DNA of 64,000 nucleotides from Sphaerolaimus hirsutus (lineage: Eukaryota > Nematoda > Chromadorea > Monhysterida > Sphaerolaimidae): positions 12,278,701-12,342,700 of the forward strand of contig OZ038450.1 of NCBI GenBank assembly GCA_964036195.1, written 5' to 3'. Made by a program: the position numbers and the translations under genes. This document shows, piece after piece, positions 3,101-63,997 of this stretch. Numbering within the stretch: the first letter of the stretch is position 1; each line of letters opens with the position of its first letter. The notes beneath the pieces are model-generated. The model had not been told where the DNA came from. It was given only the letters and a program-made list of their open reading frames with translations, and ran no database searches.

Positions 3101-6100
3101 GGGGTCACGGGGTCGTGATGGTCTTTTTTAAATTTCGGGATCGGCATTGGTACTTTTTCGGGATCGGGATTTTGGACAATGTTCTGGTATTGTTGGTTTT
3201 TATCTAAAGTTTGCCTAAAATAGGTCTAAACACACGTTGATGCCAGGGTAGGGTTAGAAAAAATCAATTTTTTATAATTAAAATCCGATTTTTTTTAATC
3301 CCCCAAAATGGGATATGTTAAGTGCCAGACAATGTCTTGTTATGTCGATCCTGGTCATATTATGACTGTGGAGTCATGTCATAGCATTACAAGCAGTGAT
3401 TTCTTTCAAAATCCATTTTATATCGACGTATTACATACAGGGGTGGGCATCTTCAGTTACCGCTGGGAAAATGCGATAGATTGAGCTACGGTTGAGCTAT
3501 CAGAATGAAATTTTAACACAATGGAGTAGACTCCATAGGACACCTATTCTGAAGCTTGCAACCCAAACGGCCACATTTTGGGTGAGTTGTGGAACACACG
3601 GTTTTTAGTGTAATTTTGTGACTTGGCGTCACCCATAGGATAAATCGAGGGTGGCATTTGAGGGGGGGGGGCATCGGTCGTTGGTGTCGTCCCATTCTGT
3701 CGTACATCGGCCGATTTTGATGCCCTTTGAGTATGTTGTGGTCGCGCCTACTACCAAATTCTTTTTTTACTCGAATAGTCCCCCAGTCCCGAGATAAGGG
3801 GGGTGAAGTCACAAAATTACACTAAAAACTGTGTTCCACAACTCCTCCAAACTGTGGCCGTTTGGGTTGCAAACTTCAGCATAGGTGTCCTATGGAGTCT
3901 ACTCTATTGTGTTAAAATTTCATTGTGATAGCTCAACTGTAGCTCAAGCTATCGCGTTTTTCCAGCGGTAACTGAAGATGCCCACCCCTGTATATCGCCT
4001 TTTGTCGAATGTTCGTGACTTCATGTGAAGTCCAGCATGGAATAGTGCTGAAATAAGGTTGTAAGAGAAGGCTAATACATTGCTAGTGATGCTACACAGT
4101 AGAAGTATGTGGGAGCACATTGGCTGGATATTATATACTACACTAGCATATAACGGTTTATTGAGCCCAGACACGCTAGTTGACATCAACACCGAATGTC
4201 AACCGGTGCCGATCAAACGGAACCAGTTGACATTTGGTGTCGATGTCAACTAGCGTGTGTGGGGCCATTATTACACCGTATCATGAATAAATGCAATATT
4301 TTACACTAGAAATGCCCCAAAACCCATGAAAACACCACCAATGGTAATGTGTATTGGAAATTTGCGCGCAAAAAAATTGAGCAAAAAACTTGCGCGCAAA
4401 AAAATTGCAAAATACCTTGTGCAAGTCTACCAGAAATTTTTCATTTTGATTTTTTAAAATTAAAATCAGTTTCCACCTTGTGATTTTTTTATCAGATTTT
4501 TTTAAATCAGTTGAAAAAATCAAGTGCCAACCCTATGTCAGGGTGACATAAAATGCTTTTCGTACACATTTCTCGTTGCAAAAAGGTCATTTGGCACATT
4601 TGGCAAAAATTAGGGATTAGGGAAAAGTTTTCAGAATCGGGATTGGGTTTTGAGATGTTTCGAAATCAGGAATGTTGGACCTGGTTTGAGGTTTCCGAAT
4701 CGGGACTGCAAAATCACAGCATTATTGGCCCAGAGCCCCGCAAATGTCGAAAAAAATAAACTATTAAATCAACCCACCTCCCTATACTTGGCCTCCTGGT
4801 CGTCGTAGATGGAATCGAACGCGTCGTGAGCGACGCGGGTGCAGGCGCGCTGCTTGAGCGACCGCAGCGTGGCCATCTCGATGTCTTTGCGGACGCGGCT
4901 CATCGCCGCCGCCAACACTTTCACCCGCTCCACGATGCCGCTGCTGTCGGCCACCGTCTGCGCAGTTGCACTGTATGAATTGTTCAATATCATTATATCA
5001 GTGATAGCTATGGTTGCCACGGGGGTTCACATTGAGTGTAGGTTACTCAAGCAATTTTTTAAATCCATTTACCGTATTTCCTCGAATTACCCCCCCACCT
5101 TGAATTAACCCCCCCCCCTCGAAATACCCCCAGGTGTTTTCGAGCTGAGGAAAAAATACCCCCCCCTCGAAATACCCCCCGCCTGGAATGATATACATCA
5201 TATATGCAATGTACATGATGTATTTATTGATGCCAATTTGCATCGCAGATACACATATACGATATACGTTAATATGTGTAAAGATGTACATCTAAATAAC
5301 CGTTATGTCCCGATATATCCTATTTACCCACGTTTATTACCGGTTTTGGGTATGAAAAAGCGTACTGTTTACTATGAATTTCATGAAAATGTCTGACGAA
5401 ATAATAACCCCCCCTCGAATAAGCCCCCCCTCAAAATTTCCACTCTGAAAAAATAAACCCCCTGGGAGTATTTCGAGGAAATACGGTATTTTTATTTTAA
5501 AAATCCCAGCTAGGGTTGGCTAATGTTTTTTAAAACGGTTTTTTATAAACGTTTATAAAAAACGATGACAGAAAAGTTTTTTTAACATTGACCCAAATTT
5601 TTAGTACTAAGCACTAGGTATTTTGCAAAAATTTTGCGCGCAAGCACGCAATTTCACACACAAATTGAATGTGTGAATGGCCAATGGCGCCACGGCGTGG
5701 GGCCTATGAATGGCGCCATTCCGTCACTATGTAGGCGAAATTTCAAGGGGGGGCTGAGCCCACCCATTCGCCGCCCCCGTTCGCCGGGCTCCGAAAACAA
5801 GCAGCCCCCCGCTCGAAAATCCTGGATACGTCCCTGTGTGGTTGTAGTATATAATATTCAGGTAATGTGCTTCCATGTACCTCCACAGTGTGCTTCCATG
5901 TACCTCCACAGTGTGTAACATCACTCCCAAAGTAACAACCTCCTTTATAACCTTGTTTGATCACCATTCCGTGCCAAACTTCACTTGAAGTCACGAACAT
6001 TTGACTATTTATAAGGCGATATACGAAAAATGTTGACAAAAAATGGACATTTTTGACACAAATCACCACGCTATCCCATGGCCCCACAGCCATTATATGG

Positions 6101-9100
6101 TCATATATAACATCAGAGTATTGCCACTTGTCGGATATCGGGTGGGCGCGCCAGCGCCATCCCTCGCTGCCGAGGGAGGGCGCAAGCGACCCACCCATAA
6201 TATGGTCGGACACACCAAAATGCGGAAATCGCAAAATTGAAATCGCAATAACTTCGGAGCGCGACAAGCTACGGCAAAACAAATCATACCATTGAATAGC
6301 CCGTGTCAAAAAGTACCCCCATACAAATTTTCAGATCAAATGGTCGAGTTGGGAGGAAGTTATTGCACATTTTCTTTTCTAGACAGTGTTGTTGTCGTTG
6401 TTCTTGTTGTTCTTGTTCTCCCGACAATCTTCAAACTGCAATAACTTCCTTGAAACACGACCGATTTTCATGGTTGATGGCTCATATGAAAGAGCATATG
6501 ATGCCATTTCTTATTTTCGGGAATTTTTTTCACAGGCTCCGCCCACTTTGGGATGGTATCTGTTTGAAATTTTCAAACCTCAATAAATTTTAAATTTGAA
6601 TACAAATGCGGCAATAAAAAAAATTTGTTGATGTGTGCCATGACTAGAGCTTTCAAATGAGCCAATTTTTGGCGATTTTGGTTGAGATTTACAAAAGTTA
6701 TTCAAGTTTGCTTGTTTTGTGTAAAATGCGCACACATGCCTGAAGTACTGCTTGATGTGATATTGAGCATGTGACCTTGGAGTCAGTGATTACTTTCAGT
6801 CATAAAGTTGTAGTGGTTAATGTCAAGTCAAATGTCAAGTGAAAAATCAAGTCAAATGTCAAGTTGTCTGTCAACTCATAAATGACAAGCGGTAATACAA
6901 AGTCAGAAATGGTGATTGAGGCGCCTATTTCGTTCCGAATTGAGGCATCTAGTTCTAGCATCTATTTTTCAAATTTGTTCAATTTTTTGTAAATTTTTTA
7001 TTAAATTTAAAAAAAAAAATTTTAATTTTTTTCAAAAAAAAATTACATTTTTTAAATTAAAATTTTTTTAAAGTTTTTTAAGTTTTTTTTTAAAAAATTT
7101 TTATATTTTTTTATTTTTATTTATTTTTTTAAAAATTTGATTAAATTGATTAAATTTTTTTTAAAGTTTAAAAAAATTGAGGCAATTGAGGCACCTAGTT
7201 CTGAATTGAGGCATCTAATTCTAGCATCTATTTTTTCAAATTTGTTCAATTTTTCAAAAATTTTATTAAATTTTTATTTATTATTTATTTATTTTTTTTC
7301 AAATTTTTTTCAAATTTTTTAAATTAAACAAAAAAATTATAAGTTCTTTTTAATTTTTTTTTGTTTTTGATATTTTTTTAAATTTTTTTTTACTTTTTTT
7401 AAATAAATAAAAAAAAATTAAAAAAATTATAAATTATTTATAAAAAAACTTTGAATAAATTTGAATGAAACATTTGAAGAAAAAAATTTGAAAAAAAATA
7501 ATTTAAAAATTAAATAAAAAAATTTGAAAAATTATTTTGAAATAAAAAATAAAAATATACATAAGATGGCGCCACTTTGGAGTCTATGGCACCACTCATA
7601 AAAATGGTGCCATATTGGACTCCATGGTGCCACTCGATAAAAACAGCATAAAAAGCACTATTAACAGGGAGATAGTGATAGTGGAGATGAAGTGGAGATA
7701 CCAACATTCAAGTGAAATTCCAGTCAAATGACAAGTAAAAGTCATTTTTGGTGTCAAGTGATAGTTCAATTCAAATGTCAAGTTTTTGGTGTCAACTGAT
7801 AATTTTCAGGTGATAATTTTCAGGTGTCAAGTCATAAATGTCAAGTGAAAACTATCAGGTGAAAATATGGCAGGTGGTTCATGTCAAGTCATTGTCATGT
7901 GGGTAATGTCAAGTCAGAAATGTCAAGTGATAACTTTTAGGTTCTAAATGTCAAGTTCTTAATGTCAGTTCAAATGTCAAGTGGTAACTTTCAGGTGAAC
8001 AATTTCAGATAAAAATCAAGTAATTATACTAATACAAACCAGAAATGTGTGACATTCAAGTTGAAAATATTTTGAATATTAGTATTTGGCTTCTTCTTGA
8101 CTATAGATTGTCTTCCTCAGTGCCAAATTTGGCATTTGCTTGATTTGCAATAACTTATAAATTTTTTGGGCCTGTGGCCCCCAAAAAGAAGGATGGTGTG
8201 TCGGTGCCCAAGTAAACCCGGTGCCCAAGTACGCCCGGTGCCCAAGTTTAAATAACCGGTGCCCAAGTATGCCCAGTGCCCAAGTAAAGTGCCCGTACTT
8301 GTGCACCAGACGGATGTTTACTTGTGCACCAGGCGGTTTCTTACTTGTGCACCGTGGCGGTTTTTTTTGGGTCGTAAATATGAGCACTAGTTGTCAGACT
8401 AGTCAACTAGCACTTGTATTTACGACCCAAAAAAAACTATAGAGTCCAGGTAACATTCCGGGTTGTGAAGGTGATCGCTAGTGAACTAGCATTCATGTTC
8501 ACAACCCGGAATGTTACCCGGACTCGATAGTTTTTCAGGTCATAAATACAAGTGCTCATCAACTAGTCTTTCGCTTGCACCTGACTGGTGCCCAAGTAAA
8601 CAACCAGCCCAGTGTCCAAGTAAACATCTGGCCAGTGCCCAAGTTCAGGCACTTTACTTGGGCACCGGGCGTACTTGGGCACCGGGTATTTAAACTTGGG
8701 CACTGGGCGTACTTGGGCACCGGGTTTACTTGGGCACTGGTCTTTCGTCAAAAGAAGTACATCCAATAAAAAATGGCTAAAGCCAACAAAAAGTGGACGC
8801 TGCAGCCAAACATCTGTATGCTTTTGAATGCACAAAAGTGATATATCATATACCATGCCATTTTCTAATTGAGCTATCAAAAGATGTATATCAAGGGAAA
8901 TGTATACAAATCTAATAATATAGGCTATCAACACAGCAAACTGCATCACAAGAAACAGTTTCACCAAACTTTTGCATGGCAGTGTGAGCTGTGTCAAAGT
9001 GCTGCAAACATTAAAGATACAAAAAGCTCACGCTGCCATGCAAAAGTTTGGTGAAACTGTTTCTTGTGATGCAGTTTGCTGTGTTGATAGCCTATATTAT

Positions 9101-12100
9101 TAGATTTGTATACATTTCCCTTGATATACATCTTTTGATAGCTCAATTAGAAAATGGCATGGTATATGATATATCACTTTTGTGCATTCAAAAGCATACA
9201 GATGTTTGGCTGCAGCGTCCACTTTTTGTTGGCTTTAGCCATTTTTTATTGGTACCTATATCAGTTGACCCAAGGCCATATCTGGGAGCTTTTAAAAAAA
9301 GTTTAAAATTAAAAAAACGTTGTTTTAAAAAAAACATGGCGTTAAAAATACGTTGTTTTTTTCAACCCTAATCCCAGCATAGATTTTAAAAAATTTCGGT
9401 TTATAGCACTACGTAAATTGCGGAAATTTTGGCGCAAGCGGGCAGTTTAAAATTATTTGACATGGAAAGAAATTGACACCGGTGTGTGTGTGTGGCCATT
9501 TCGCCACTTAGAACTTTTTCCAGATCGACGACAACCATTGTTAAACATTGAATAATGGAATAGTTTGACAGCATCAATCAAACACAAAAAACCCTCACTT
9601 TGTCGCCAAAGTTCTCCTTTCCAAGCGCCTGATCAGACGCAGCCGGCTGCCTGACGCGCTGATCCCTGGGATCCCTCACCGCCGGCCGCGCAGCCACGCC
9701 AACTTCCCAGCGTTTCTCCCGCGGTCGACCGAACTGCGGCTGGGCGTGCTGCCGCGCGGCCGCCTTGTCAACGACAGCCGCAGCACGGGGAGGCGCCGGG
9801 CCCGCGGCCGCGGTGTGAACGTAGGGCGGCACGGGCGGCGGCGGCACGCCCGGCGCCCAGAACGGCATGCCGTGGGGCGGCGGCGGCGCCATGCCCATCA
9901 CTGCCGTCGGTGGCATGGGCTGCGGCGGCACAGATGGAATACGATGAAAGTTGAGTTTATGAACATAAACGCGATTTTAAAAAGTTACCGGCGCGTACAT
10001 GGCAGGATACATCTGGTGGTACTGCATCGCCCAATTCCACTGATTCCAATAGGCCATGTAACTCTCATAGTTGCCGTGCTGCCCGCCCGATATATCTTGT
10101 GGTTTACCGCGACCGTGCTGCCGCACCGCGAACGAATGCGCAGGCCTGCACTGCGGCGCGGTGGCCGCAACCGGTTCCGGTGCGTTCTTCGACGAGCCGC
10201 TCGTGTCCACCGGTGTTGAGCCGGCCTTAAAGAGTTTTACGGTAAAGGGAGCATTTTCACATAAATCAAAAACAACACGCGAACCTGGGTGCCAACCGCG
10301 GTAGTATTGTTCAATGAGTAACCGGGCACATTTTTGGCTATCAAACTGTTGAGTCGTTGGCTCAAAGTGCTCCCCGAGCATTCGCCCAGTGTCGCCTGGG
10401 AATGGAAATAACATGCATTAATCAAAATGGATTTGATCACGGGTCAATAACGCAGTCCGCTGGAGACAGGCATCTCCAAAATTTAGTTGGGATAGATTTT
10501 AAGAAATTTGTTGGGCGGCAATATAAACTACGGTATCGGTTCAATATATTTATAAACTCATGGAGTAGCAGCAGAAAAATTAGTCAGCTAGTCAGCAATA
10601 ACATCGCTCACACAGTCAAAAGGACCAAAAATACAATACCGTAATTCCTCAAAATACCCCAGGGTTTTTCAGGATGCAAATCTTGCGGGGGGGGATAATT
10701 CGAGCGTGAGGGTTTTTCGAGGGGCATTATTTCACCAAATTTTTTTGAACTCACAGTACTTGTTCATTGTTTCTAACGTACACAGACATAGCATTACGAT
10801 AGATGACACATAGATAGCCGAGCAGATACAGTGATAGATAAATAGACCCCAACTGTAGATTTCCAACCAAACTTCACCTCGTTCTCCTTGAGCGGCACGG
10901 GCGAATTGACTGGCAACTTTACAGGCGGCTGCGGAGAGTTGCTGGGCGGCGTTCTCGGCCCGGTGGCCACGCGCGGACTGGACAGCACGTTCGAAGGCAC
11001 GCTGCCGCTCGAAGAGTCCACCAGGGGGGACACCTCGAATCTAAGGAGAGGGTTGGGTGAAAAAAGGGAGAAATTAGGGTTTTGGGTCAACAGGGGCACA
11101 CACACACTAGTTAACATCAAAATGCGTGTCAACTCAATTGTGGTTAAATAAATTATTTCACCTTTCCTATGTGATAGTGTATTTAGTTGACATTCAGTTG
11201 ACACGAATTTGCGATGTCAACTAGTATGTGGGGGCACAACGAAACGAGAACAAAACAAACTTAGTCGTGCGCACGATTTTGACGCGCTCCTCCTTCACTT
11301 CCTCCACCAACTTGTGCCGCCTGTGTCGCCGCTCGCTGTGGCTGCAAAACGAAATGAAAAAAAATTGAAATGGAAAATCACACTGACAAATTTAACAAGG
11401 CACCTATCCACATTTCCAGTCCACTTTTCGGAACGCTTTTTCGGACTGCGAGATTTCTGGTACTCCTTCTGTGTGTAGGCCATTTTACGGTCGACTTTGC
11501 TGCTCGCTGGAGGCAAATCGTATTTAGAGCGATCCTTGCGGCGCGAGCGAGATCGGGACTCGGATGAATCGCTGCTCGAACTGCGCGTAGGTGGAAAATG
11601 AGACCACGCTTATGCAATGTGTACAAGTACTTTGACCTTAGCATAGGGTTGGAAAAAAAACGTATTTTTAACGCCATGTTTTTTATATAAAAAAACGTTT
11701 TTTTTAATTAAAAACGTTTTTTTAACGTTTTTTTTTAAAGCGTCCATATATGTTCCTGGGTCAACAGATATAGGTATATCAGACAAGTGACAATACTCTG
11801 TGATGTTATATATGACCATATAATGGCCGTGGAGCCATGGGATAGCATTATAAGTGGTGATTTGTGTCAAAAATGTCCATTTTTTGTCAACATGTTTGTA
11901 TATCGCCTTATAGTCGAATGTTCGTGACTTCAAGTGAAGTTTGGCACGGAATAGTGATCAAACAAGGTTATAAAAGGAGGTTGTTACTTTGGGAGTGATG
12001 TTACACACTGTGGAGGTACATGGAAGCACATGACCTGAATATTTTATACTACAGCAACATATGACGGCTTATTTACCCACGGTAGCACATAGAATTGGAT

Positions 12101-15100
12101 GCTTTGATACTAACTAAAAATGCCACAAAACCAATGAAAACAACCACCAATGTCAATTTGTGTGTGAAATTGCGCGCTTGCGGGCAAAAATTGTGCAAAA
12201 TACCTAGTGCTTAGTATTAAAATTTTGGCCGATCTTTTAAAAAAAAAAAAACGTTTCGGACATCGTGTTTTTTTAAAAAACAACGTTTTTTTAATAAAAC
12301 GTTTTAAAAAAACATCGGCCAACCCTACCTTACCAAATCACTTGGCTTGGAAAATGGAACTTGGAAAGTAACTAAATATTTATGAATATGTATGGTCCCT
12401 TGACAGGAAAACATAACAGAATTTGCCCTACCTGCTGCCACTGTCGCTATATTTTCTTCGCCTATGGCTCTTTGATTTCTTTCTACTCCTCGATTTACCG
12501 CGCGCCTTCGATTTTGATCGCTTTGAACTAGATCGTTCACGACTTTTGCTCTTGCGTTTTTTTGATCGCGACCGCCGACGATCAGTTCTCGACCGTGATC
12601 TGCAAGCAATACTATTAAATTGTTACGCGTGGTTCGCACGGTGTCAAAAAGCGATTTTTTTACCAAATTGTAAATATCGGTATCCTAAATACGCATTTAC
12701 CTATTTTTTGAATACAAGGAGATCGTTATCGATTTACAAATTTTTACAAGTTACAAATTTTTTCGACAATTGTCACGATGTGCACGAACTACTCGATATC
12801 AAAGACTATTCATACGTCGTCCTAAAGAAGTCGCAGTATATAAAGACAAGTACATAATAAGCACGACTCTGTATTCAATCAAAATAAAATTCCGACGAAC
12901 CTAGGGTTTTCCGGCGCCCTGCTACACTCAGCTACATTTTGCGCGGCCGCATTAGCCTTCTGCAGCACGATCGGACAAGGGTCGACGGGCGCGGGGGAGT
13001 TCTGTTCCGTCAGCGGATTGACACTGACATTCGCGCTCGATGTCGATGGACGGTCGACTGCGCGCGGTGCCACTGCGATGCAAGAAAATTGTTAAAAATT
13101 TAGAAATTTTTGTCTGGTGCTACTAGGGATGGCCGAATAAGGTTTTTTTTCATCAACAGGGTTTTTTATATATAAAAAATGGTTTTTTTCAAAAACAGGG
13201 TTTTATTTTAAAATAAAACCGTTTTTCTCAAAAGCTCCCAGATATGGTCATGATGAATCAACATGTACAGGTAAATTAGACAGGTGACAGTACTTTGTGA
13301 TGTTATATATAGCTGTAGTGTCATGGGATAGCATTTTCAGTGATGATTTCTGTCAAAAATATCTGTTTTATGTCAACTTATAAGGATATCGCCTTTTGTC
13401 GAACATTCGTGACTTCATATGAAGTTGGGTATGTAAAGTTCCTCAATAAGGATATAAGAGCAGGCTAACACATTGGCAGTGGTGTTTCACACTGCACAAG
13501 TGTTTAGGGGCACATTGGCTGTATATTATATACTACACTAGCACATCGTGGCTTATTATGAGATATAGCACAAACAAATGGAAGCTTTTACACTAAAAAT
13601 GCCTAAAAACCAATGAAAACCACCACAAATGGTAAAGTACAGGTGAAATTGCGCGCTTGCGCGCAAAAAATTTGCACAATACCTAGTGCTTAGTACTAAA
13701 AAATTTGGCCAAGGTTTTTTTTAGCGTTTTTTATAAAACCGTTTTTCTCTCGTTTTATTTATGAGGAACAGGGTTTTATTTCATATAATTTTTTAAACCA
13801 TTGAAAAACCCCTCGGTCATCCCTAATTTTACATGGCATTTTACAGGCTCTGGAAGTCCCCTCCCAGAATCACCGCACCAGGGACCACAGGGGGCGAAGG
13901 TGGAGGCGGCGCCGGAGGCAGCGGAAGCTCAGCCGCGTTGACGATCGGCTCAGCCTGCCTATCCATCTTGTGCCCTTCCGCCGCGCACGCGGGAATCGCA
14001 ACCTTCTGCCTTGGCAGCCGGCCAAACATGTCGCTGGGCGACGGCGTGCGCGCGACCGACGGATAATACCCCTCCTCGTTCATGAAGTCGCCCTCGCCTC
14101 GCTTGGTGATCGCGTTGGCCCTCTCTTCGGCCTCGAGCGACTCGCGCTGCTTCTCCTGCTCGATGACCGCGTCGATGGCGGCTTTGATTAGCGCGCTGGC
14201 GCCCGCCGCCGACCGCATACGGCCGGTGACTAAAAGCTCGTAGGCGGTGCGCACCACGCGGCCTGGGGAGATCGGTGATGGGTTTGAGTGGTTGGGGTGG
14301 GACACATAAAAATTCCTTGGAAGTGGGAAAAATCTAGGGGGATTTATGTATTGTCGAATAATAGAAAACTTTTAAAAAACCTTAATTTATATTTTCTCGA
14401 GAGACATTTGGTTACCGTATTTGTTGCTCGAATAATTCCCGTGGTGTTATTTACCGTCAGACTTGTCTGAGGGGGGCTATTCAAGGGGGAATCATTATTT
14501 GGTCAAAATTTTCAAACATATTTATGTCAACCCATTTCACGAAATATACACAAAACAAAGTGACATGCAATTTTTGTCAAATTGAACACAAGAAAATGAA
14601 ATATGCCTAAAGAGGGAGATGTTCAATGGGAAATTTTTTTGCCTCACTTGTCTAGCAGGGGGAATTATTCAAGCAAATACGGTATTAGGGATGGCAAGCG
14701 CTTTTTATTAAGCGCTTTTTTTTTTAAACGCCGCTTTTTTTTAAAAAAAAGCGCTGGCAAAAAATTTTGTACTTATGCACTAGGTATTTTGCTATTTTTT
14801 TGTGCGCAAGCGCAAAATTTCACATGCAAATTACCACTGGTGGCTGTTTTCATTGGTTTTGTGGCATTTTTAGTGTCAATGCTTCTATCCCTGCATACTA
14901 TCATGTAATAATAAGTTGTGATATGTTAGTGTAGTATAGAATGTTCAGCGACTGTGCTCCCAAATACTTCAACAGTGGGGAACATTAGTCTCAATGTATT
15001 AGCCTTCTCTTATAGCCTTATTTATAAGCACTATTTCATGCCTAACTTCATTCGAAGTCAGGAAACATTCACAAACTGCGATATACATAATGAGTCAACA

Positions 15101-20325: not shown

Positions 20326-20327
20326 TA

Positions 20328-20736
20328 CCGTATTCCTTCCAATAGAAAAGCATGCCTCCAATAGAACGGCAGGTTTTGGAATGTTTTTGCGCCCACGAAA
20401 ACAATAGAACGGCAGCCTCAAATTGAACGGCACCTCCAACAGTACGGCAGGTAGAAAATGCATTGCAATAGTGCAAAAAACCAACAGCATAAAAATTGGA
20501 TGACCAGAATGTTCAAAGCATTCAAATAGACGTTAAATCTCAAATTGATGCTCTGATATTTATTAAAATATTGCTGAAGTTTCATTGAAAAATAAAGCTA
20601 ATACATAATATGTTCAAATAAAAAATGTGTGAAAAAATTGGTGAATAAAATAGAACGGCAGCCTCCAATAGAACGGCAGGTAAAAAAGTTGACGAAAACA
20701 AAATAGAACGGCGCTCTTCTATTAGAAGAAATACGG
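20328..20736. mobile_element. CCGTATTT-family MITE with AATAGAACGGC words
   Basis: Ends CCGTATT..TTCCAATAGAA and TTCTATTAGAAGAAATACGG, flanked by TA. Repeated AATAGAACGGCAG words face each other across an AT-rich centre. The same word family forms the element at 26056-26481, and a sister word (AATAGAAGGGCG) the one at 24017-24193. Confidence 0.7.
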
Positions 20737-21326
20737 TACACGTGTAAATTGTATGTACCGTAGCTACCTTTTTAAATAAAAGGCACATGGCCTGTCGTTT
20801 TTCATATCTTGTTCATATCTATTTACATTGCATTGTCATTGGCTATCAACGCACAGCAATGTGGGGTCTAGTGGGGCACATATTTCAGAAACCATATTTC
20901 ATAAAATAGTGCACGGAAGAATTTTTCATCAGCATATCCTTACCCGGTTATTGTTTTCTCGATTATAAATTACATTACGATTACAGTGCAATGCTTGCTG
21001 TAATATATAAATTATTCATAAGAACTGTTCATGAGCGTTTGGCCTGAAAAAGTGGCGCCAGAAAGATGGAGCCCTTGGCGCAGTTGACACCCAAATTGAC
21101 CACGACATATTGGCTGTAGACAAATTGGTGGTGCCATACTCGCCGGAGAACAAATTATGCGCTGACATCCCAGCATCGGTTTTTTACTGTGCCATTCTAT
21201 TCATTTGCCTAATGTACATTTGAATAGAATGGCACAGTAAAAAGCAGCGGCATAACAATGCCTATCATTAAGTTCCATATGTTGACAATAAAGTGTCAAA
21301 TTTTGAGCCCCTGCTTTCAACATATA

Positions 21327-23595: not shown

Positions 23596-24016
23596 CGAGA
23601 ATGATGCTATAATCAGGTTAAAATCTTGCATTCTGACTCCGGGCTTTGGCTGTGGCAATATTCTATCGCTAAATACTAGGTAGGCTCCAATGAAAAAAAC
23701 AGACAATGCAAATCTATCTAGTGAAGTGGTAACAAAAGCAATGCGCATACAAAGTGTAACGGTTTGAGAGTGCTTGCGCTCTTGCGGCCATAATAGACCT
23801 AGGTTTAGTGATGGAAAAGTGCCAGAAAAAAGGGCGCCAGTGGCGCCGTGGCGGCGTCCGATCACTATTTTCTTTCGCTGCACCTTGCACTATAGTGATA
23901 GCGTTTTGCTAAATGGCTACTATTCATCAGCTTTTGAATCAATGTCCATGATTCACGGCACTAACACCAGAAAAAGGATAGATAGTGTTCTAATCTAATG
24001 ATAAAAAGCCTATATA

Positions 24017-24193: not shown

Positions 24194-24326
24194 TAGTAAT
24201 CCGCATGTGATAGGCAGATCATAAATCAAACTAGCACATGAAAATCATCAGCGCTTTTCTTCTAACGTCGCTGCATACGGATTAAATATATCGTATCGTC
24301 ATGGTGCCTCGCGCCTTTTTCTGGTC

Positions 24327-38060: not shown

Positions 38061-38061
38061 C

Positions 38062-39155: not shown

Positions 39156-39157
39156 GG

Positions 39158-54500: not shown

Positions 54501-57371
54501 AATATTTTTCAGTAGGGCACCCACCCCGTCCCATAAACAGCAGACTGGAAATTTCACTTTAAACCATTTTTTTGTTTCACACATAAAAAGTTCGTTTACA
54601 AAGTTCACTAGAGAAGGGTGTAATGTTCAAAGTTACGTAAACAACATGACCTCTAAAATGCCCCCATAACGAAATTTATTTGGGGTGAATATTATGATGT
54701 CATAATCACATCATCACAGGAACAAAATTTGACAGAATTTCAACTTTTACATTACCCCAAATAAATTTCCTTATGCAGGCATTTTAGAGGTTATGTTGTT
54801 TACATAACTTTGTACCTTAGACCCTCCCTAGTGAATTTTGTAAACAAACTTTTTAAGTGTGAAACAAAAAATTGGTTTAAAGTGAAATTTTCAGTCTGCT
54901 GTTTATGGGACGGGGTGGGTGCCCTACTGAAAATTTTGATGAGCAGAACTAGGGTTCAAATCTGATTCAATTTTATATCAGGTATGTTCTCACATAGGGA
55001 TGGCAAGCGCTTTTTTTTAAGCGCTTTTTTTTTAAAAAACGCCGCTTTTTTTTAAAAAAAAGCGCAAGGGTCCCAGCGCTTTTTTTTAAAAAAAGCGCTG
55101 GCAAAAAATTTTGTACTTATGCACTAGGTATTTTGCTATTTTTTTGTGCGCAAGCGCATAATTTCACATGCAAATTGCCATTGGTGTTTGTTTTCATTGG
55201 TTTTGTAGCATTTTAGTGGCATTGCTTCTAGTAATAATAAGTTGAGGAGATATGTCAGTAGGGATGGCAAGCGCTTTTTTTTAAGCGCTTTTTTTTAAAA
55301 AAACGTCGCTTTTTTTAAAAAAAAAGCGCTAGGGTCCCAGCGCTTTTTTTTAAAAAAAAGCGCTGGCAAAAAATTTTGTACTTATGCACTAGGTATTTTG
55401 CTATTTTTTTGTGCGCAAGCGCAAAATTTCACATGCAAATTACCACTGGTGGCTGTTTTCATTGGTTTTGTGGCATTTTTAGTGTTATTGCTTCTATCCC
55501 TGCATGCTCTCATGTAATAATAAGTTGTGATATGTTGGTGTAGTATAGAATATTCAGCCAATGTGCTCCCAAATACTTCAACAGTGGGGAACATTAGTCT
55601 CAATGTATTAGCCTTCTTTTATAGCCTTATTTATAAGCACTATTTCATGCTTAACTTCACTCAAAGTCATGAAACATTCACAAACTGCGATATACATAAT
55701 TAGTCAACAAAAAAAGTATTTTTTTTGACAGAAATCACCACTGATCGTGTTATCCAATGACTACACAGCCATTATATGGCTATATATCATCACAAGTACT
55801 GCCACTTGTCTGATATACCTGTATATATTGATAAAGAACCATATTTGGGAGGGTTTTTAGGGAACGTCTCAACATTTTTTGAAAAAAAGCGAAAAAAGCG
55901 CGTTTTTTTAAAAAAAAGCGCTTTTGTTTTAAAAAAAGCGGGGCCGTTAAAAAAAAGCGCTTTTTTCCATCCCTATATGTCAGTGTAGTAAATAATATCC
56001 AGCCAATGTGCTTCCACTTTTCTACAGTGTGAAACATCACTGTCATGTATTAGCCTTCTTTATAGCCAGATGTAAGCACTATTCCATGCCTTACATCACT
56101 TGCAGTCAAGGAACATTCAAAAACGGCGATATACGTCATGAGTCAACATAAAATTGATTTTTTTGGCAGAAATCAGCACTTATAATGCTATCAGATGATT
56201 ACACAGCCATTCTATGGCTATATATCATCACAATTACTGCCACTTGTCTGATATACCTGTATATATTGACTCAGTACCATATTTGGGAGCTTTTTAGGTA
56301 ACGTCTTGACATTTTTTGAAAAAAAGCGCGTTTTTTTTAAAAAAAGCGCTTTTTTTTTAAAAAAGCGGGGCCGTAAAAAAAAGCGCTTTTTTCCATTCCT
56401 ATTCTCACAACATTTTTTTATAATGCAGTTGGGTGGCGAACTTGTTTGGGAGACTTGGGTTGTTTTAAAAAAATGAACAACTTCATATGCGGCGACCCAT
56501 GCTGTAGTGGGTCGTCGGCGGCTACCCACTGGTGTATTGTGAGGGGGGTTGTTTGCAAGACATCCCCAAAATTTCAGCTTTCTATCGCCCTCACAGCTGG
56601 AGATATGGCCCTCGTAGTGTAGATAATCAAGTGGGTGGTGAACTTGTTTGGGACACCGAAAAAGCCACAAAAAATGTTTGCATATAGGGCGACCCACCCT
56701 GTCGTGAATCGCCGCACCTTCCCCCATTGATACGGAGTAGCGGGGTGTTAGGACTATGTACCCACTAAATATTAGATTTATACCACTCCCATTGCCAGAG
56801 ATATTGCATCTGAAGTGAAATAAAAAAATGGGTGGTGAACTTGTCTAGGAAGGTGTTTATTTTCAGTATTATATGCTGTTGCATACCCATTTTGAGCTAT
56901 TTTACACCTACTTTTAGCGATTTTTCTCCCTTTTCTTCCTTCTACACCCTGAAATAGCCTTTATATCGAACCACCACAACCACCCCCCCCCCCCAAAAAT
57001 TTTTTTTTTCTAGCTATCTATCTATCCCGAAGGCCGCTCAGCTATCTATCCAACCACTCGGAGGGTCAAAATTCAAGATACCCCTTGCACGGATTACAAA
57101 TGGAGAACGAGAGATGTCCCAATGTAGTTTCTGATAAAAAATTAAAAAAATTTCTAGTCGGACTCCATTGCTCTCACTATGGCTTAATAGGTGTATAACT
57201 TGTAACGTAATTTTATTCATCAAAATACCCTACCCATTCTTTGCACAGCGCGTAGTCAGAAGAAGTCCCACTCCCGAACATAACCGACCTAGTGTTTGAA
57301 ATAGATCGACGTAGGACGAATACTTGTCAAAAATTTTCTTGGCTTCATTTTCATCTTCGGTGCGGAGGAAG
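41922..57371 (-). CDS. PLA2G6: Calcium-independent phospholipase A2, iPLA2-beta type (N-terminus incomplete)
   Basis: Hydrolyses the sn-2 ester of phospholipids without calcium; in animals it acts in membrane remodelling and mitochondrial lipid homeostasis. Sixteen exons chain with matching phases: 57289-57371, 50438-50588, 48029-48209, 47881-47963, 47532-47651, 47363-47459, 45751-45933, 45359-45465, 45029-45086, 44855-44945, 44545-44787, 43991-44144, 43800-43921, 43221-43399, 42382-42534 and 41922-42122 (TAG at 41922-41924). They give 734 residues, close to the family's 750-800, so only some 50-60 N-terminal residues are missing; they may lie near or in the N gap at 58508-58707. Ankyrin repeats precede a patatin domain with DGGGIRG, GTSTG and DGG motifs intact. 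Confidence 0.93.
42600..43045. mobile_element. CCGTATAC-family element in an iPLA2 intron with a nested ACGTACGCAGG element
   Basis: The left part has TTATT(A/C)..GGGGG words and the right end is GGTATACGG. 42875-42925 is the reverse complement of the acidic-tail coding remnant seen near 21640-21685. A short GTACGCAGGATTTTTGAGCG element (about 42744-42830) with G and C runs is nested inside; its relative is at 53524-53959. Confidence 0.6.
43221..44144 (-). CDS. PLA2G6: iPLA2 exons: KTLREC segment, substrate region and catalytic Asp
   Basis: Exons 43991-44144 ([19 protein letters not shown]), 43800-43921 ([15 protein letters not shown]) and 43221-43399 (SSAAPTYF, then [14 protein letters not shown]). 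The Asp of DGG completes the Ser-Asp catalytic dyad. Splice phases 1, 2, 1 and 0 all match. Short elements with GTAAAATGTC words occupy the intron near 43450-43790 and end a few bases from the donor at 43799. Confidence 0.92.
44545..44787 (-). CDS. PLA2G6: iPLA2 catalytic exon: glycine loop and GTSTG nucleophile
   Basis: 80 codons with [11 protein letters not shown] (glycine-rich oxyanion loop) and [11 protein letters not shown], where the Ser of GTSTG is the catalytic nucleophile. The 33-residue spacing between the motifs is normal for patatin-like lipases. GC-rich, in contrast to its introns. It is bounded by TTTTCAG| (with an ACTAAAT branch-like site just upstream) and AAGG|GTGAAT. Confidence 0.95.
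44855..45086 (-). CDS. PLA2G6: iPLA2 linker exons
   Basis: Exons 45029-45086 and 44855-44945. The first encodes the end of the last ankyrin unit (LQLGGARRC), a segment conserved in PLA2G6. The second ([18 protein letters not shown]) is an acidic linker leading into the patatin domain. Phases 2, 0 and 1 match on both sides. The second exon's donor is CCA|GTTAGT; the frame meets a stop one codon later. Confidence 0.8.
45359..48209 (-). CDS. PLA2G6: iPLA2 ankyrin-repeat exons
   Basis: Six exons: 48029-48209, 47881-47963, 47532-47651, 47363-47459, 45751-45933 and 45359-45465. Ankyrin hallmarks are visible, including [58 protein letters not shown] and [19 protein letters not shown]. In this family the repeats mediate oligomerisation and regulation. 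The exon at 45751-45933 has its acceptor inside a hAT target-site duplication, and a 203-bp hAT element (45507-45709) occupies the next intron. Confidence 0.92.
45499..45717. mobile_element. hAT element with TTCGGGATCGG words
   Basis: Element 45507-45709, with termini TAGGGTTCAAACGGGAT and CCGGTTGAACCCTA, flanked by AACACATG and AACACATC (7 of 8). Only 203 bp, almost entirely (A/T)TTCGGGATCGG words. It lies in an iPLA2 intron. Diverged copies of the same word occur at 3075-3180 and 4605-4720. Confidence 0.85.
45931..46981. mobile_element. hAT element, CAGGGGT family, at an iPLA2 3' splice site
   Basis: Element 45939-46973, starting CAGGGGTATCTTGAATTT and ending TTCAAGACCCCTG, flanked by perfect 8-bp GGCCTGAC duplications (45931-45938 and 46974-46981). 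It contains a nested CCGTATTT MITE (46011-46399), long G runs and a tRNA-like sequence. On the minus strand the duplication reads GTCAGGCC, and the exon 45751-45933 begins after its AG. Confidence 0.9.
46549..46621 (+). tRNA. tRNA-like sequence (pseudogene or SINE head)
   Basis: Consensus A box (TAGCTCAGTCGG) and B box (GGTTCGAATCC), with D, anticodon (TTCAC/GTGAA) and T stems intact. The acceptor stem has one mismatch. The seven-base anticodon loop is ACGGAAC, so position 33 is C instead of the near-invariant U; read literally the anticodon is GGA, yet the long variable arm expected of tRNA-Ser is absent. A T-run follows about ten bases downstream. Inside a hAT element it is more likely a pseudogene or SINE-derived. 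Confidence 0.55.
47678..47847. mobile_element. Short hAT element, CAGGGGT family
   Basis: Element 47686-47839, with flanks GTTCACGT and GTTCATGT (7 of 8). It contains the GACAGCTGGGCGATTGGGAG segment in tandem. It lies in the iPLA2 intron between exons 47881-47963 and 47532-47651, 35 bp upstream of the acceptor. Confidence 0.75.
48254..49650. mobile_element. Doubly nested TACTCGGCGGAC transposons enclosing an ACCGT-word hAT element
   Basis: The outer copy has TACTCGGCGGACAGCA at 48256 and TGCGGTCCGCCGAGTA at about 49645. An inner copy has TACTAGGCGGACCGC (48415) and GCGGTCCGCCAAGTA (about 49570), with TA flanks. A further relative with these TIRs is at 33067-33271. The hAT element 48440-49329 is inside the inner copy. 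Confidence 0.7.
48432..49337. mobile_element. hAT element whose ends are ACCGT arrays
   Basis: Element 48440-49329, with termini TAGGGTGGCAGAATTTACCG and GTACCGTCTGCCACCCTA, flanked by perfect 8-bp ACAGTATG duplications (48432-48439 and 49330-49337). About 150 bp at each end is made of TTTACCGTACCGTACCG words. The core has an unrelated unique sequence plus a TTTGCGCGCAAGCGCGCA palindrome, a motif also seen in the TAGGGTTGG cores. Confidence 0.92.
49732..50432. mobile_element. hAT element with T-run/A-run AACGTT ends
   Basis: Element 49740-50424, starting TAGGGTTGG and ending ATCGGCCAACCCTA, flanked by perfect 8-bp GGTGTAAA duplications (49732-49739 and 50425-50432). The core is very similar to 11644-12327 and, inverted, to 57540-58070 and 60340-60740. 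It ends within 14 bp of an iPLA2 donor. Confidence 0.92.
50438..57371 (-). CDS. PLA2G6: iPLA2 N-terminal exons
   Basis: Exon 57289-57371 encodes [19 protein letters not shown] and exon 50438-50588 encodes [19 protein letters not shown], matching the segments just before the ankyrin repeats of PLA2G6. The frame in the first exon stays open past its donor (CTAG|GTCGG at 57288), but only this donor keeps phase. The intron is 6.7 kb and transposon-filled. A 685-bp hAT element begins 6-14 bases inside the next intron (duplication 50425-50432). Confidence 0.85.
50876..51046 (+). other. Open frame after a splice-like TTTCAG (unidentified)
   Basis: 57 codons reading [20 protein letters not shown] and [15 protein letters not shown], then TGA. 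More GC-rich than its surroundings and protein-like, on the strand opposite to iPLA2 and inside its intron. It could be a terminal exon of an intronic gene, or the end of a retroelement reading frame followed by the LTR-like stretch to about 53100. No family recognised. Confidence 0.3.
51060..53380 (+). other. Unique AT-rich interval with LTR-like promoter and poly(A) signals
   Basis: Unlike its surroundings, this 2.3 kb has none of the repeats described here. It holds a 68-codon frame with a transmembrane-like segment (52407-52613), a TATAAAAG box at 52925-52932, a TTCAGTC initiator-like site near 52960 and AATAAA at 53094-53099. TATA, start site and poly(A) signal within 180 bp is the layout of an LTR, but I could not find paired LTRs or a primer-binding site. 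Confidence 0.3.
53516..53967. mobile_element. hAT-type element with ACGTACGCAGG ends and G/C runs
   Basis: Element 53524-53959, starting CAAGGACGTACGCAGG and ending CCTGCGTACGTCCCTG, flanked by perfect 8-bp CCTCCAAA duplications. Subterminal GGCGGCCGCCCCCCCC and CCGGGCTCCGTATACAATCC blocks recur at 5745-5845 and 42744-42830. The interior has GGCGCC words. Confidence 0.88.
53995..56865. mobile_element. Foldback element (second copy) with nested hAT elements
   Basis: Ends CACCTTCCCGGACAAGTTC and complement. The arm repeats AACAAGTTCACCACCCA with the spacing seen at 29795-32105. The right arm is split by the hAT insertion 54995-56401. No coding capacity recognised. Confidence 0.75.
54987..56409. 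mobile_element. hAT AAGCGCTT element carrying a second copy of itself
   Basis: The outer element 54995-56401 has perfect TTCTCACA duplications (54987-54994 and 56402-56409). Inside it a same-family copy, 55259-55975, has its own perfect TATGTCAG duplications (55251-55258 and 55976-55983). Both start TAGGGATGGCAAGCGC. Without the insert the outer copy is about 680 bp, like the family member at 14686-15347. Confidence 0.92.
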
Positions 57372-57537: not shown

Positions 57538-58507
57538 TAGGGTTGGCCGATGTTTTTTTTAATAAAAAAAACGTTTTTTTTTTTAAAAACATGACGTCCG
57601 AAATGTTTTTTTTTTTAAACATCGGTCAAAATTTTTAGTACTAAGCACTAGGTATTTTGCCAAATTTTTGCGCGCAAGCGCGCAATTTCACACACAAATT
57701 GACATTGGTGGTTGTTTTCATTGGTTTTGTTGCATTTTTAGTATCAAAACATCCATTTCTATGTGCTACCATGGGTGAATAAGCCGACATATGTTGCTGT
57801 AATATATAATATTGAGGTAATGTGCTTCCATGTACCTCCACAGTGTGTAACTTCACTCCCAAAGTAACAACCTCCTTTTATAACCTTGTTTGATCACCAT
57901 TCCGTGGCAAACTTTACCTGAAGTCAGGAACATTCGACTATAAGGCGATATACGAATGATATGTCGACAAAAAATGGATATTTTTGACACAAATCACCAC
58001 TTATAATGCTATCCCATGGCTCCACAGCCATTATATGGTCATATTTAACATCACAGAGTATTGCCAGTGTCTGATATCGGGTGGGCGCGCCAGCGCCATC
58101 CCTCGCTGCCGAGGGAGGGCGCAAGCGACCCACCCATAATATGGTCGGACACACCAAAATGCGGAAATCGCAAATTTAAAATTGCAATAACTTCGGAACG
58201 CAATGCGCTAGTGCAGAACCGACTGCACCATTAAAAAGCCCGTGTCGAAAAGTACCACCATGCAAATTTTCAGATCCAACGGTTGAGTTCGACAGAAGTT
58301 ATTACGGATTTTCTTTTTCAAGTAGTGTTGTTGTCGTTGTTCTTGTTCTTGTTCTTCTTGTTCTCCCGACAATCTTCAAACTGCAATAACTTCTTTGAAA
58401 CACGACCGATTTTCATGGTTGATGGCTCATATGAAAGAGCATATGATGCCATTTCTTATTTTCGGGAATTTTTTTCACAGGCTCCGCCCACTTCGGGACG
58501 GTATCTG
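57538..58507. mobile_element. TAGGGTTGGCCGATG hAT core joined to the GGATATCGGG repeat (truncated by gap)
   Basis: Starts TAGGGTTGGCCGATGTTTT at 57538, runs through the common core in reverse orientation and switches at about 58072 to the GATATCGGGTGGGCGCGCC sequence, exactly as at 5514-6600. It is cut by the N run. Confidence 0.7.
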
Positions 58508-59617: not shown

Positions 59618-59757
59618 GGCTAAAAATGTCGGTGGAAGCTTCGTGTAAATTTTTCATGCGTCCTGAATTTTTCTAAAATGAATTTTGTCGTCCTGCAGCT
59701 CAAACCAAAAACTTTCCCAATCCTCAAGACTTGGTATGTTATTACACCCTCAACACT

Positions 59758-61245
59758 AGGGTTGAAAAAAATCAATTTTTTTAAACGCCTTGATTTTTTA
59801 AAATTAAAATCAGAATTTTTTTAAATCGTCCAAAATGGGGGTATAGAGAAAAATATCTGTATGTTAAGTGTCAGACAATGTATTGTTATGTCTATTGTGG
59901 TGATATTATGACTGTGGAGTCATGGGATAGCATTATAAGCATTGATTTCCTTCAAAAATATCCATTTTTAGAGATTTCCTTCAAAAATATCCATTTTTAT
60001 GTCAACTTATTACATACTTCGAGTGAAGTTCAGCATGGAATAGTGCTTAAATAAGGTTGTAAGGGAAGGCTAATATATTGACAGTGATGTTACACTCTGT
60101 AGAAGTATGTGTGAGCATATTGGCTGGATATTATATACTACACTAGCATATTATTATTACATGGTAGCATGAATAGCTTTTACACTAAAAATGCCCCAAA
60201 ACCCATGAAAACGCCACCAATGGTAATGTGTATGGGGAATTGTGCACTTGCGACAACACAAATTGCAAAATACCTAGTGCAAGTCTAACAGAAATTTTGC
60301 CTTCTGATTTTTAAAAATTAAAATCAGTTTCCACTAGGGTTGGCCGATGTTTTTTTAAACGTTTTATTTTTAAAAACGTTAAAAAAAACACGAGGTCCGA
60401 AACTTTTTTTTTTACATCGGCCGAAATTTTTAGCACAAAGCACTGGGTATTTTGCAACATTTTTGCGCGCAAGCGCGTAATTTCACACACAAATTGACAT
60501 TGGTGGTTGTTTTCATTGGTGTTGTGGCATTTTTAGTATCAAAGCATCATTTCTATGTGCTACCATGGGTAAATAAGCCGTCATATGTTGCTGTAGTATA
60601 AAATATTCAGGCAAATGTGCTTCCATGTACCTCCACAGTGTGTAACATCACTCCCAAAGTAACAACCTCCTTTTATAACCTTGATTGATCACTATTCACT
60701 GCCAAACTTCACTTGAAGTCACGAACATTTGACTATAAGGCCCTGTTTACACGGATTTTTGGTGACGACAGAAAAAGTCTGTCGTCACAGACATTTTTGG
60801 ATGAAAATTGAAAAAATTTCGTGTGTGACGACAAATTAGCCTCGATAAAAACGGGACAAATCGGCCTCGATGGCGCCGACAAACATAAAATTTGAAATTA
60901 TGCACTCAAAATGCCATTTTTTGTTCTGATGAAACCATAGTATAGTTGGCACAAAATATTTATTCAAATGTGCTATTAATTGCATGCACTTTGCAATGAC
61001 TTCTCATGCCACTGGGTAATGGCAGCTGTAGAATGTTGTCACAAGCAAAGCACGTTCACAGCTTGTGACAACACTTTTGGAATGCATCTGTAAATAAAAT
61101 GGAAATTTTGTAAAAAGTTGTCGGAACGCCTCGGTAGCGAGGCTAATTTGTCGGAACGCTAACGCCATGTATTTTATATAAAAAAACGTTTTATTTATTT
61201 TAAACGTTTTTAAACAGTTTTTTAAAAGCTCCCAGATATGGCCTT
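59758..61245. mobile_element. Cluster of broken hAT elements with AAAATCA and AACGTT ends
   Basis: TAGGGTTGAAAAAAATCAA (59758) opens an element like 3249-4535. It is followed directly at 60335 by TAGGGTTGGCCGATG, opening a reversed AACGTT element. Near 60738 this is interrupted by a palindromic segment (about 60738-61165) with GGTGACGACAGAAAAAGTCT and GTCGGAACGC words. The rest of the AACGTT element resumes at about 61165. Confidence 0.6.
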
Positions 61246-61253
61246 GTGTCAAC

Positions 61254-61411
61254 TAGCGATGGAAAAGTGCCAGGAAAATGGCGCCAGGCGCCAAGGGCGC
61301 CTGTCAAAAAATTGGCGCCGGGCGCCAAAAGGCGCCAGAGAAAATGGCGCCTGGCGCCATTTTTTCAGATGGCGCCATGGCACCATTTTTCCTGGCGCTT
61401 TTCCATCACTA
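61254..61411. mobile_element. GCGCCA-word hAT-type element
   Basis: 158 bp, with ends TAGCGATGGAAAAGTGCCAGG and CCTGGCGCTTTTCCATCACTA. Nearly all of it is GGCGCC(A) words, with a centre near 61330. Flanks do not match, and the surrounding hAT core lacks about 120 bp at this point, so the site has been rearranged. Confidence 0.75.
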
Positions 61412-61600: not shown

Positions 61601-62032
61601 CTTTGATACAGGGGTTGTGCAGATTTGGACCTACGCGGGGGTTCATATAGAGAGCAAATCGCTAGAGATAGATAGCTGAAAAATTTTTTTTTGGGGGGAT
61701 CAATATATAGGCTTTTCCAAGGTATAGAAGGAAGAAAAGGAGAAAAAACGCTGAAAGTAGGTGAAAAACAGCTAAAATAGGTATATAAGTACATATAGTA
61801 CAAAAAATAGCTGAAAATGAGCAATAAGGAACATGAATTAGAATTTTGAAGGTGAAAACTATAAAATGGTATGAAAAATATCAATTTTGAGCAAAAATTG
61901 GGGCAAACTTTTGACGATTTGGGGATAGATAGCTGAAAATTTTCCCTCTGGGATAGATAGATAGCTGGCGAATTTTTTTTTTTGGGGGGGGGGTAACCCC
62001 CCCAACCGCCCTACTCAACCCCTGCTTTGATA
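61601..62032. mobile_element. hAT element, CAGGGGT family
   Basis: Element 61609-62024, starting CAGGGGTTGTGCAG and ending ACTCAACCCCTG, flanked by perfect 8-bp CTTTGATA duplications (61601-61608 and 62025-62032). It has AGATAGATAGCTG words and long G/C runs. It is inserted in the core of a TAGGGTTGG element. Confidence 0.9.
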
Positions 62033-62735: not shown

Positions 62736-62739
62736 TTTG

Positions 62740-63997
62740 AACTGATGTACACATGAGGTGCTCTAGCTCAACGCTGCTTTAAGTTGTGATCATGAAACTT
62801 TGGCTAGTGTAAGCTACCAGTGTTGGCAATGTGCCAGCACTAAACAACATTAGCTATGATATCATAAGCCTAGTCCATATTGCCATTACTGGTACTACTC
62901 TCACTACCAAATTCATCATTCTGCCTCTACGGTTGGTCAATACAGGTTAATACAGGATGCATTTTGCATGCACACTGCTGTTGAACACAGGTAATGTGTC
63001 CACTACAGATTAGTAATGAAACACAAATGAAATTTAATTGACATAATTTTTTACGGTACATTTCAAAACAACATTAAAATCACTGCAATACAACAAGATC
63101 TCAGATGATCACCAAAAACATCCAGCACAGTTCCCATGTTTCTTGCACATCACCCTGATGTGCATATTAATTTTACCTTAATATCAATGATGTTGATGAA
63201 AGTGTTGAATACTATCAGCACATTGCCAACACACTGGCTTACACTAGCCAAAGTTTCATGATCACAACCAGGGTTCAAACGGGACCACGGTCCCGGTAGA
63301 TGGTTCGGCAAAATTCCGGGACTGAGGTGGTACCAGTCCCAGTCACAGTCCTGGTCCTGACCCCCCAGTCCGGGTCCCGGTCCCAATAAAAACAAATGCC
63401 AGTCCCGGTCCCAGTACAATCCGCCAGTCCCGGTCCCGGTACAATCCGCCAGTCACAGTCCCGGTACGATCCGCCAGTCCCTGTCCCAGTCCCGGTACAA
63501 TCCGCCAGTCCCGGTACAATCCGCCAGTCCCGGTCCCGGTACGATCCGCCAGTCCCGGTCCCGGTCCCTTGAATTTTATAGTGGTCCCGCTAAGGGATAA
63601 AAAACGTTGTTTTACAATGAATAAACAACGTTTTTTTCATAAAATCATCATTTCAGAGGCTCTATTATGATTTCGAAGGCCTATTTTTACATTTCAAGGG
63701 CCTATTATTCTGGTCCCGCTACCCCAGTCCCGGTCCCAGTAGATGGTTCGGCAAAATTCCGGGACTGAGGCGGTACCGGTCTCGGTCCCGGCCCAACACC
63801 CCAGTCCCAGTCCCGATAAAAAATAAATGCCACTCCCGGTCCTGGTCTTGGTATGAACTGCCAGTGCTGGTCCCGGTCCCGATAAGAAAAATGTCTGGTC
63901 CCGGTCCCGGACCGAAAAACTGGTACTGTTTGAACCCTAATCACAACTTGAAGCAGCGTTGAGCTAGAGCACCTTGTGTATGTATATCAGTACAAGA
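62740..63997. mobile_element. Foldback element with a CCCGGT-word hAT element inserted in one arm
   Basis: 62745-62835 (GGTGCTCTAGCTCAACGCTG...) is repeated inverted at 63225-63268 plus 63940-63985, with GTTGGCAATGTGC toward the centre. The hAT element 63269-63939 splits the right arm. Confidence 0.7.
63261..63947. mobile_element. hAT element whose ends are CAGTCCCGGT arrays
   Basis: Element 63269-63939, with termini CAGGGTTCAAACGGGACC and GTACTGTTTGAACCCTA, flanked by perfect 8-bp ATCACAAC duplications (63261-63268 and 63940-63947). Both halves are arrays of CAGTCCCGGTCCCGGTAC(A/G)ATCCGC words. The terminal 15 bp nearly match those of the TTCGGGATCGG element at 45507-45709, yet the words differ. 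Confidence 0.93.

Follow-up and report, generated by a model that had tools for sequence, protein, structure and literature searches.

A 64,000-nucleotide stretch of the nematode Sphaerolaimus hirsutus (contig OZ038450.1, positions 12,278,701 to 12,342,700; hereafter the window) carries a set of transposable elements with short inverted tips, 8-bp target-site duplications (TSDs) and, at both ends, arrays of a short word that differs from family to family. These are likely to be non-autonomous hAT elements, similar to miniature inverted-repeat transposable elements (MITEs), whose ends are arrays of putative transposase-binding subterminal repeats. Words are inherited with the lineage and were changed at both ends on the branches between lineages, and non-palindromic arrays mostly have the same orientation at the left and right ends. 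Approximately eleven different words occur within this one stretch. The elements are as follows, those sharing one core coming first.

14686-15347 (E4): tips TAGGGATGG, word AAGCGCTT, TSD TACGGTAT
55259-55975 (E13): word AAGCGCTT, TSD TATGTCAG; inside E12, its empty site aligning to relatives
54995-56401 (E12): word AAGCGCTT, TSD TTCTCACA; split by E13
11644-12327 (E3): tips TAGGGTTGG, word AAACGTTT, TSD 7/8
49740-50424 (E11): word AAACGTTT, TSD GGTGTAAA; core as in E3 and E4
57538-58077: partial AAACGTTT-type copy, one end and core
60335-60741: partial AAACGTTT-type copy, inserted beside the AAATC-type copy 59757-60334
59757-60334: AAATC-type copy, core as in E3/E4/E11, one tip missing
13125-13808: copy with AAACCG/AACAGGG word, core as in E3/E4/E11, second tip not found
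3249-4535 (E1): word AAATCA/AATCCGATT, TSD 7/8; word sharing between ends not significant
5511-9370 (E2): ends with AAACG word, TSD ATCCCAGC; broken up by other insertions
16074-16882 (E5): word TTCGATAT, TSD GTTGTGCT; arrays mainly on the same strand
24575-25166 (E6): tips TAGGGTGTCAAA, word TTTTCCG (21 AAACGG hexamers, one strand), imperfect TSD; nested in E19
24335-25426 (E19; scored as 24336-25425): tips CAGAGTTG / CATAGTTG, word ACGTAAAC, decayed; flanks 6/8 by eye
29956-30792 (E7): tips CAGAGTTG, word ACGTAAAC, TSD CTCACTAC
32466-32656 (E8): tips TAGTGATG, word AGCGCCA, TSD TTCCAGTG; without core
61254-61411 (E20): tips TAGCGATGGAAAAG / TAGTGATGGAAAAG, word GGCGCC; without core, no TSD found
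45507-45709 (E9): tips TAGGGTTCAAAC, word TCGGGAT, TSD 7/8; without core
63269-63939 (E14): tips similar to those of E9, word GTCCCGG, TSD ATCACAAC; 159-bp direct repeat between ends
48440-49329 (E10): tips TAGGGTGGCAGA, word TACCG in 36-bp units, TSD ACAGTATG
61609-62024 (E15): tips CAGGGGTTG, TSD CTTTGATA; few same-strand ATAGATAGCTG repeats
45939-46973 (E17): tips CAGGGGT, TSD GGCCTGAC; relative of E15
53524-53959 (E16): tips CARGGACGTACGC, TSD CCTCCAAA; no matched array, control
47686-47839 (E18): tips CAGGGG, TSD 7/8; no array, control

Insertion anatomy and word arrays

The original prediction had named ten elements with stated tips and 8-bp duplications. Comparison of tips and flanks showed inverted tips in all ten and an exact 8-bp flanking duplication in nine; that of 45507-45709 matches at 7/8 positions (AACACATG/AACACATC). 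Further elements, beginning at 3249, 5511, 11644, 24575 (nested in 24335), 45939, 47686, 53524, 61254 and 61609, were obtained from scans and by reading. Among 20 elements the duplication is exact (8/8) in 13 and 7/8 in four (E1, E3, E9 and E18); E6 has an imperfect duplication, E19 shows 6/8 by eye after correction of one end, and none was found for E20.

A mechanical scan for a 9-of-13 inverted match between tips together with a flanking duplication returned 15 exact duplications at length 8; four fall inside the 48440 array, which leaves 11 separate elements. Its exact duplications at other lengths numbered 48 (4 bp), 18 (5), 8 (6), 1 (7), 0 (9), 1 (10), 2 (11) and 0 (12). With a 7/8 tolerance the scan gave 23 rows, compared with 0-5 per run across 20 block-shuffled runs. 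It overlooks 54995-56401, which has a mutated tip, and 45939-46973; both were recovered separately.

The tips are of the TAGGG, CAGGG, CAGAG and TAGTG types, the exceptions being the left tip of E16 (CAAGG) and one tip of E12 (TAGGA). The consensus for hAT tips is YARNG, and the elements thus combine YARNG-type short inverted tips with the 8-bp duplication of hAT elements, as had been proposed. The target preference nTnnnnAn, the duplication type of Hermes (PMC10368747), appears as a weak bias: T2/A7 is present at 14/26 half-sites of the 13 duplications versus 7.6 expected (p=0.007). The insertion of E13 into E12 is directly visible, because the empty site aligns to relatives: the flanks, joined through one copy of the duplication, match the core of E4 and E13 from one side of the site to the other, apart from two small gaps close by. 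E4 has landed right in the tip of a TACCGTA element (14678-14693), and its own duplication (TACGGTAT) includes that tip.

Behind the tips, a family-specific word array is present at both ends, starting 12-39 bp from the tips, and the word is rare in the ends of other elements. Eleven of 12 elements have their first word starting at base 12-17, the other (29956-30792) at base 39, so that the previously proposed 12-18 bp of terminal sequence is about right; the last word stops 12-32 bp before the right tip. Sharing of words between left and right ends was tested in 18 elements, leaving out the 13-bp tips and using 2000 places of the same geometry outside the elements as background. This test is conservative because the background is itself repeat-rich. 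All ten elements named beforehand gave p<=0.031, and 15 of the 18 gave p<0.04, in keeping with the subterminal repeats of hAT elements; these values are uncorrected, and after correction for 18 tests only E5, E7, E10 and E12 would clearly remain.

As had been proposed, family-specific arrays take the place of unique ends. A table of 12 words by 24 elements is nearly block-diagonal. Its main off-diagonal entries belong to GCGCCA, with six copies in one end of E16 and eight in the middle of E2. Stray single copies of words occur elsewhere, and the short words are also present outside the elements, 0 to 68 times each in 46,115 bp. Several arrays have a period between 36 and 41 bp (E10 36, E6 and E4 40, the 13125 copy 39); a single universal word spacing was dropped, since periods outside this range also occur. 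A CpG in every word was likewise dropped, most copies of the AAATCA group being without one.

Within E2, 8761-9252 is a long palindrome with inverted arms 8761-8982 and 9029-9252, each approximately 83% identical to the core of E5, and 5866-5915 is a perfect 23-bp tandem duplication.

Exchange of words on a common core

BLAST comparison identified a common core in elements with different words: eleven copies share one core and carry four different words. When eight of these copies are aligned, the array positions are roughly in register, with the letters of the word exchanged at both ends. In a tree of the eleven copies built from core columns alone, the ends being left out, the AACGTT (five copies), AGCGCT (three) and AAATCA (two) groups each have a support of 100, and the single AAACCG copy stands apart, beside AAATCA, at a support of 69. 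Words therefore mark families, as had been anticipated: because a tree that has seen only the core groups the copies by word, the word was passed down the lineages and altered at both ends, rather than arising as a microsatellite once the element had inserted. Gain of arrays after insertion, one of the outcomes that the original prediction had named as fatal to it, was not seen; arrays are common to E12, E13 and E4, and to E3 and E11, and within a lineage they are alike (left ends of E12/E13 95% over 107 bp; left ends of E3/E11 82% over 103 bp).

Between word groups, the similarity of the ends over all columns is approximately that of the core (cores 67-76%; for E13/E11, for example, left end 75% and core 74%). 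Restricting the comparison to columns with a G or C gives agreement of 18-46% for left ends, 42-58% for the core and 0-50% for right ends, the last over few columns. The right ends of E3 and E11, which carry the same word (AACGTT group), agree at merely 42% of such columns. Faster change of the ends than of the core was rejected as a description, since similarity over all columns is about equal and the E3/E11 value undercuts the contrast at G/C-holding columns; for these reasons an exchange of words is claimed here rather than a difference in rate. A second case of such exchange seems to be provided by E9 and E14: their tips are nearly identical, and by reading their words (TCGGGAT and GTCCCGG) appear to be one letter per unit apart when one element is reversed.

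Strand layout and array ends outside the hAT group

The tips are inverted, yet in nine of ten informative elements the non-palindromic arrays run mainly along one strand at the two ends. The ratios of direct to inverted sharing are 71:0 for E6, 79:2 for E10, 17:0 for E9, 34:7 for E14, 39:14 for E7, 62:26 for E5, 10:3 for E8, 15:1 for E15 and 14:4 for E17. Independent cases number fewer than ten, because the members of three pairs (E9/E14, E7/E19 and E15/E17) are related. Palindromic words make E3, E4, E11, E12, E13 and E20 uninformative on orientation, and E1, E2, E16 and E18 have too few common words for a call. Comparison of repeats within elements showed that the ends of E14 are joined by a direct repeat of 159 bp and those of E5, E6 and E10 by direct repeats of approximately 100-150 bp. 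Among the matches listed, inverted ones were limited to one in E5 and one in E8 (at the tips), and E17 had no match, direct or inverted. A Foldback or long inverted-repeat structure was rejected for most elements, direct sharing exceeding inverted in nine of ten informative cases; long inverted arms were not found in these, E19 being level and the palindromic-word elements uninformative.

Array ends were also identified in elements of another type, which have TA at both outer ends within the tip and no further duplication in the flanks. These may be of Tc1/mariner or pogo type.

5070-5488, 14413-14684, 20326-20738, 24015-24195, 26054-26483, 34474-34723, 37352-37771 and 46009-46401: eight TACCGTATTT-tip, TA-target elements with word arrays
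20326-20738: one of these eight TACCGTA-tip elements, with 17-bp AATAGAACGGC words on the same strand at both ends

They carry words other than those listed above, several with a period near 17 bp. As raw counts, direct and inverted sharing in the six informative elements is direct throughout (5:0, 31:0, 27:1, 33:0, 12:1 and 13:0); the other two gave 3:1 and 2:2. A direct layout is not automatic in array-bearing repeats, because three of four others, with bounds set by eye, lean towards inverted (0:35, 26:67 and 4:18), the fourth being level (47:54). Two of these are related to each other and bear TACTTGGGCACC arrays; 8198-8745 leans towards inverted (26:67), and 40987-41672 is the level one (47:54). 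In a third, 27522-28298, TTATGCATCTA words are inverted at the ends (0:35) and the middle resembles that of E19 by eye.

The ends are a better basis for defining the class than membership of the hAT superfamily, because the TA-target elements have the same array design. The original prediction of a class of hAT elements thus holds in that hAT elements do show the arrays, and was too narrow in that the TACCGTATTT-tip elements show them too; in addition, 53524-53959 and 47686-47839 are without matched arrays.

Interpretation and comparison with known systems

To our knowledge, known hAT elements each use one or few subterminal motifs. Comparable TAGGG/CAGGG repeats of hAT type, their ends likewise rich in words, are common in repeat libraries of fish and invertebrates. 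Hikosaka and Kawahara reportedly described, in 2004, a Xenopus MITE with lineage-specific tandem repeats; going by the title, the likeness would lie in tandem repeats riding on a MITE. In listings of the open-licence literature no paper was found to name a class with word-array hAT ends.

Ac of maize is a hAT-type element with an 8-bp duplication. The Ac transposase binds AAACGG subterminal hexamers in the terminal ~200 bp, and these are retained by Ds2 and most Ds-like elements (PMC3260210). Short tips and repeated short subterminal hexamers are shared with the window, E6 even carrying 21 AAACGG, whereas the window differs in its many words, its dense arrays and the swapping of the word between lineages with a common core. 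The same-strand hexamers of the E6 array (24575-25166) equal the Ac transposase site, probably by coincidence. In Hermes, BED domains bind AAG(T/C) subterminal repeats; repeats 2-7 of the left end are antisense, and repeats 1-5 of the right end are sense (PMC10368747). If both Hermes ends were read from the tip inward, as their numbering suggests, this matches the same-strand layout of the window; the Hermes sites, however, are scattered 4-bp sites rather than tandem ones, and its right end is without a bound BED domain.

The Herves transposase binds CGATTCAT, four direct copies being sufficient (PMC3143072). Herves thus resembles the window in having one motif in several copies at both ends, with direct repeats sufficient for binding, but it has fewer copies near its ends and is autonomous. 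Kat1 of Kluyveromyces, a domesticated hAT, has six subterminal TGAATT hexamers whose polarity differs between the ends (PMC4763223). Here too hexamers are subterminal at both ends, "polarity" possibly meaning the same or the opposite strand, but the copies are few. In Galileo/Foldback elements of the P superfamily, tandem repeats in long terminal repeats hold multiple transposase sites (PMC3688188). Tandem arrays are thus common to both; those of Galileo/Foldback lie in long inverted ends, whereas the elements of the window have short tips and mostly direct arrays.

By analogy, the best reading of the word-array ends is that they would be an extreme form of the arrangement known from Ac, Hermes and Herves. 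The short inverted tips would mark the cleavage site, and the words would act as repeated docking sites for the BED zinc fingers of a hAT transposase supplied by another copy; Ac, Herves, Hermes and Kat1, as established cases, are the reason for proposing that transposase binds them. Words at both ends would change in concert along lineages, probably tracking the recognition of whichever transposase moves the elements. With non-palindromic arrays confined to one strand, the word would face inward at one end of the element and outward at the opposite end, which could help the enzyme to tell left from right. We infer, in sum, protein binding to the words, selection for their concerted change and a left/right role of the arrays. 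As the original prediction proposed, each word might mark a different transposase specificity and copies might gain by multiplying words; on the latter point the window offers a single observation, a 36-base array block that E13 has and E4 lacks. In its fullest form, this proposal would be a left/right code in which a multimeric transposase pairs left ends only with right ends and arrays switch word in concert as recognition diverges, the same solution having arisen in both the hAT (8-bp-target) and TA-target groups. We regard this fullest form as doubtful, the Hermes left/left result speaking against the pairing part.

Several observations weigh against the reading of the elements as hAT transposons with docking arrays and a left/right role. 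Significant word sharing between ends was not found in 3249-4535 (E1), 53524-53959 (E16) and 47686-47839 (E18), of the 18 elements tested, and a Pfam scan of 30 ORFs (open reading frames), taken from 719 stop-free frames of at least 45 residues, identified no transposase domain (BED finger or hAT dimerisation). E19, which is decayed and related to E7, has a level ratio of 22:25 (product score), with no direct bias; for the three palindromic word families (AACGTT, AGCGCT and GGCGCC) the left/right idea cannot apply as stated. The array design of the TACCGTA-tip, TA-target elements makes a cause not specific to hAT possible. In maize, at least three hexamers are present in just 17/331 Ds1 elements, yet Ds1 is mobile, and the hexamer-bearing Ds-like elements that were tested were immobile (PMC3260210). 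In Hermes, paired left ends are antiparallel and in this form unable to integrate; yet no BED domain is seen on the right end, ~70% of activity is left after mutation of two inner left-end sites, and restoring the asymmetric sites in a left/left transposon gave no rescue (PMC10368747). The missing rescue and the BED-free right end argue against a simple left/right code.

Alternatively, the arrays could be neutral, with slippage or repair synthesis during transposition expanding tip-adjacent sequence in any DNA transposon and one end being copied into the other in direct orientation. We consider this unlikely. It would account for the same design in TACCGTA-tip elements, for the direct repeats between ends (159 bp in E14, ~100-150 bp in E5, E6 and E10) and for a 36-base block of the left array of E13 that is absent from E4, the cores of the two being 95% identical. 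It fits less well with words kept at both ends within a lineage though cores differ by 24-33% between lineages, and with a word start at nearly equal distance from the tip across families. Left ends, moreover, match the left ends of other copies (scores of 82-187 in AGCGCT; 111 in AACGTT) better than their own right ends (best 63-76; 55-64), so that any copying from one end to the other is not of recent date; in E4 the difference is narrow (82 versus 73).

That a host factor, such as a chromatin or replication protein, binds the words and helps or silences the elements, in place of a transposase, is improbable. The observed/expected CpG ratio is 1.77 in the ends (nested elements being counted twice), 0.73 in the cores and 1.02 outside, which could interest methylation or CpG-binding factors, and array ends are common to unrelated element types; on the other hand, some eleven words in 64 kb fit many diverging transposases better than one factor, and the known hAT cases are transposase sites. 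Growth of ordinary microsatellites after insertion is very improbable and was rejected: Tandem Repeats Finder reports many of the arrays, but related copies in the window (E12/E13/E4 and E3/E11) have array and word in common, matched words occur at both ends in 15 of 18 elements, and lineages are marked by word.

Relatives elsewhere were sought with a core 20-mer and two array patterns (viral contigs) and with one pattern (genome contigs), in collections that may omit the window's own genome; four matches were returned, and the two inspected (L001 and L004) look like chance coding matches. Other features of the window are:

43149-45987, minus strand: ORFs resembling exons, with ankyrin repeats and a patatin domain in two halves
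46549-46622: predicted tRNA-Ser (GGA)

An exon with an RRM domain (Pfam) is also present; together with the ankyrin and patatin exons it would suit an animal host.

Docking sites at hAT ends are already established; the results of most value here are the exchange of words on a common core and the same-strand layout. With some eleven words side by side and four of them on one core lineage, the window offers a natural series on how transposase recognition and its sites change together, which bears also on how non-autonomous copies switch helpers. The same-strand layout suggests, in a form open to test, how ends that carry one and the same word may be told apart. If the reading as a left/right code were true, one genome would record an evolving lock-and-key alphabet.

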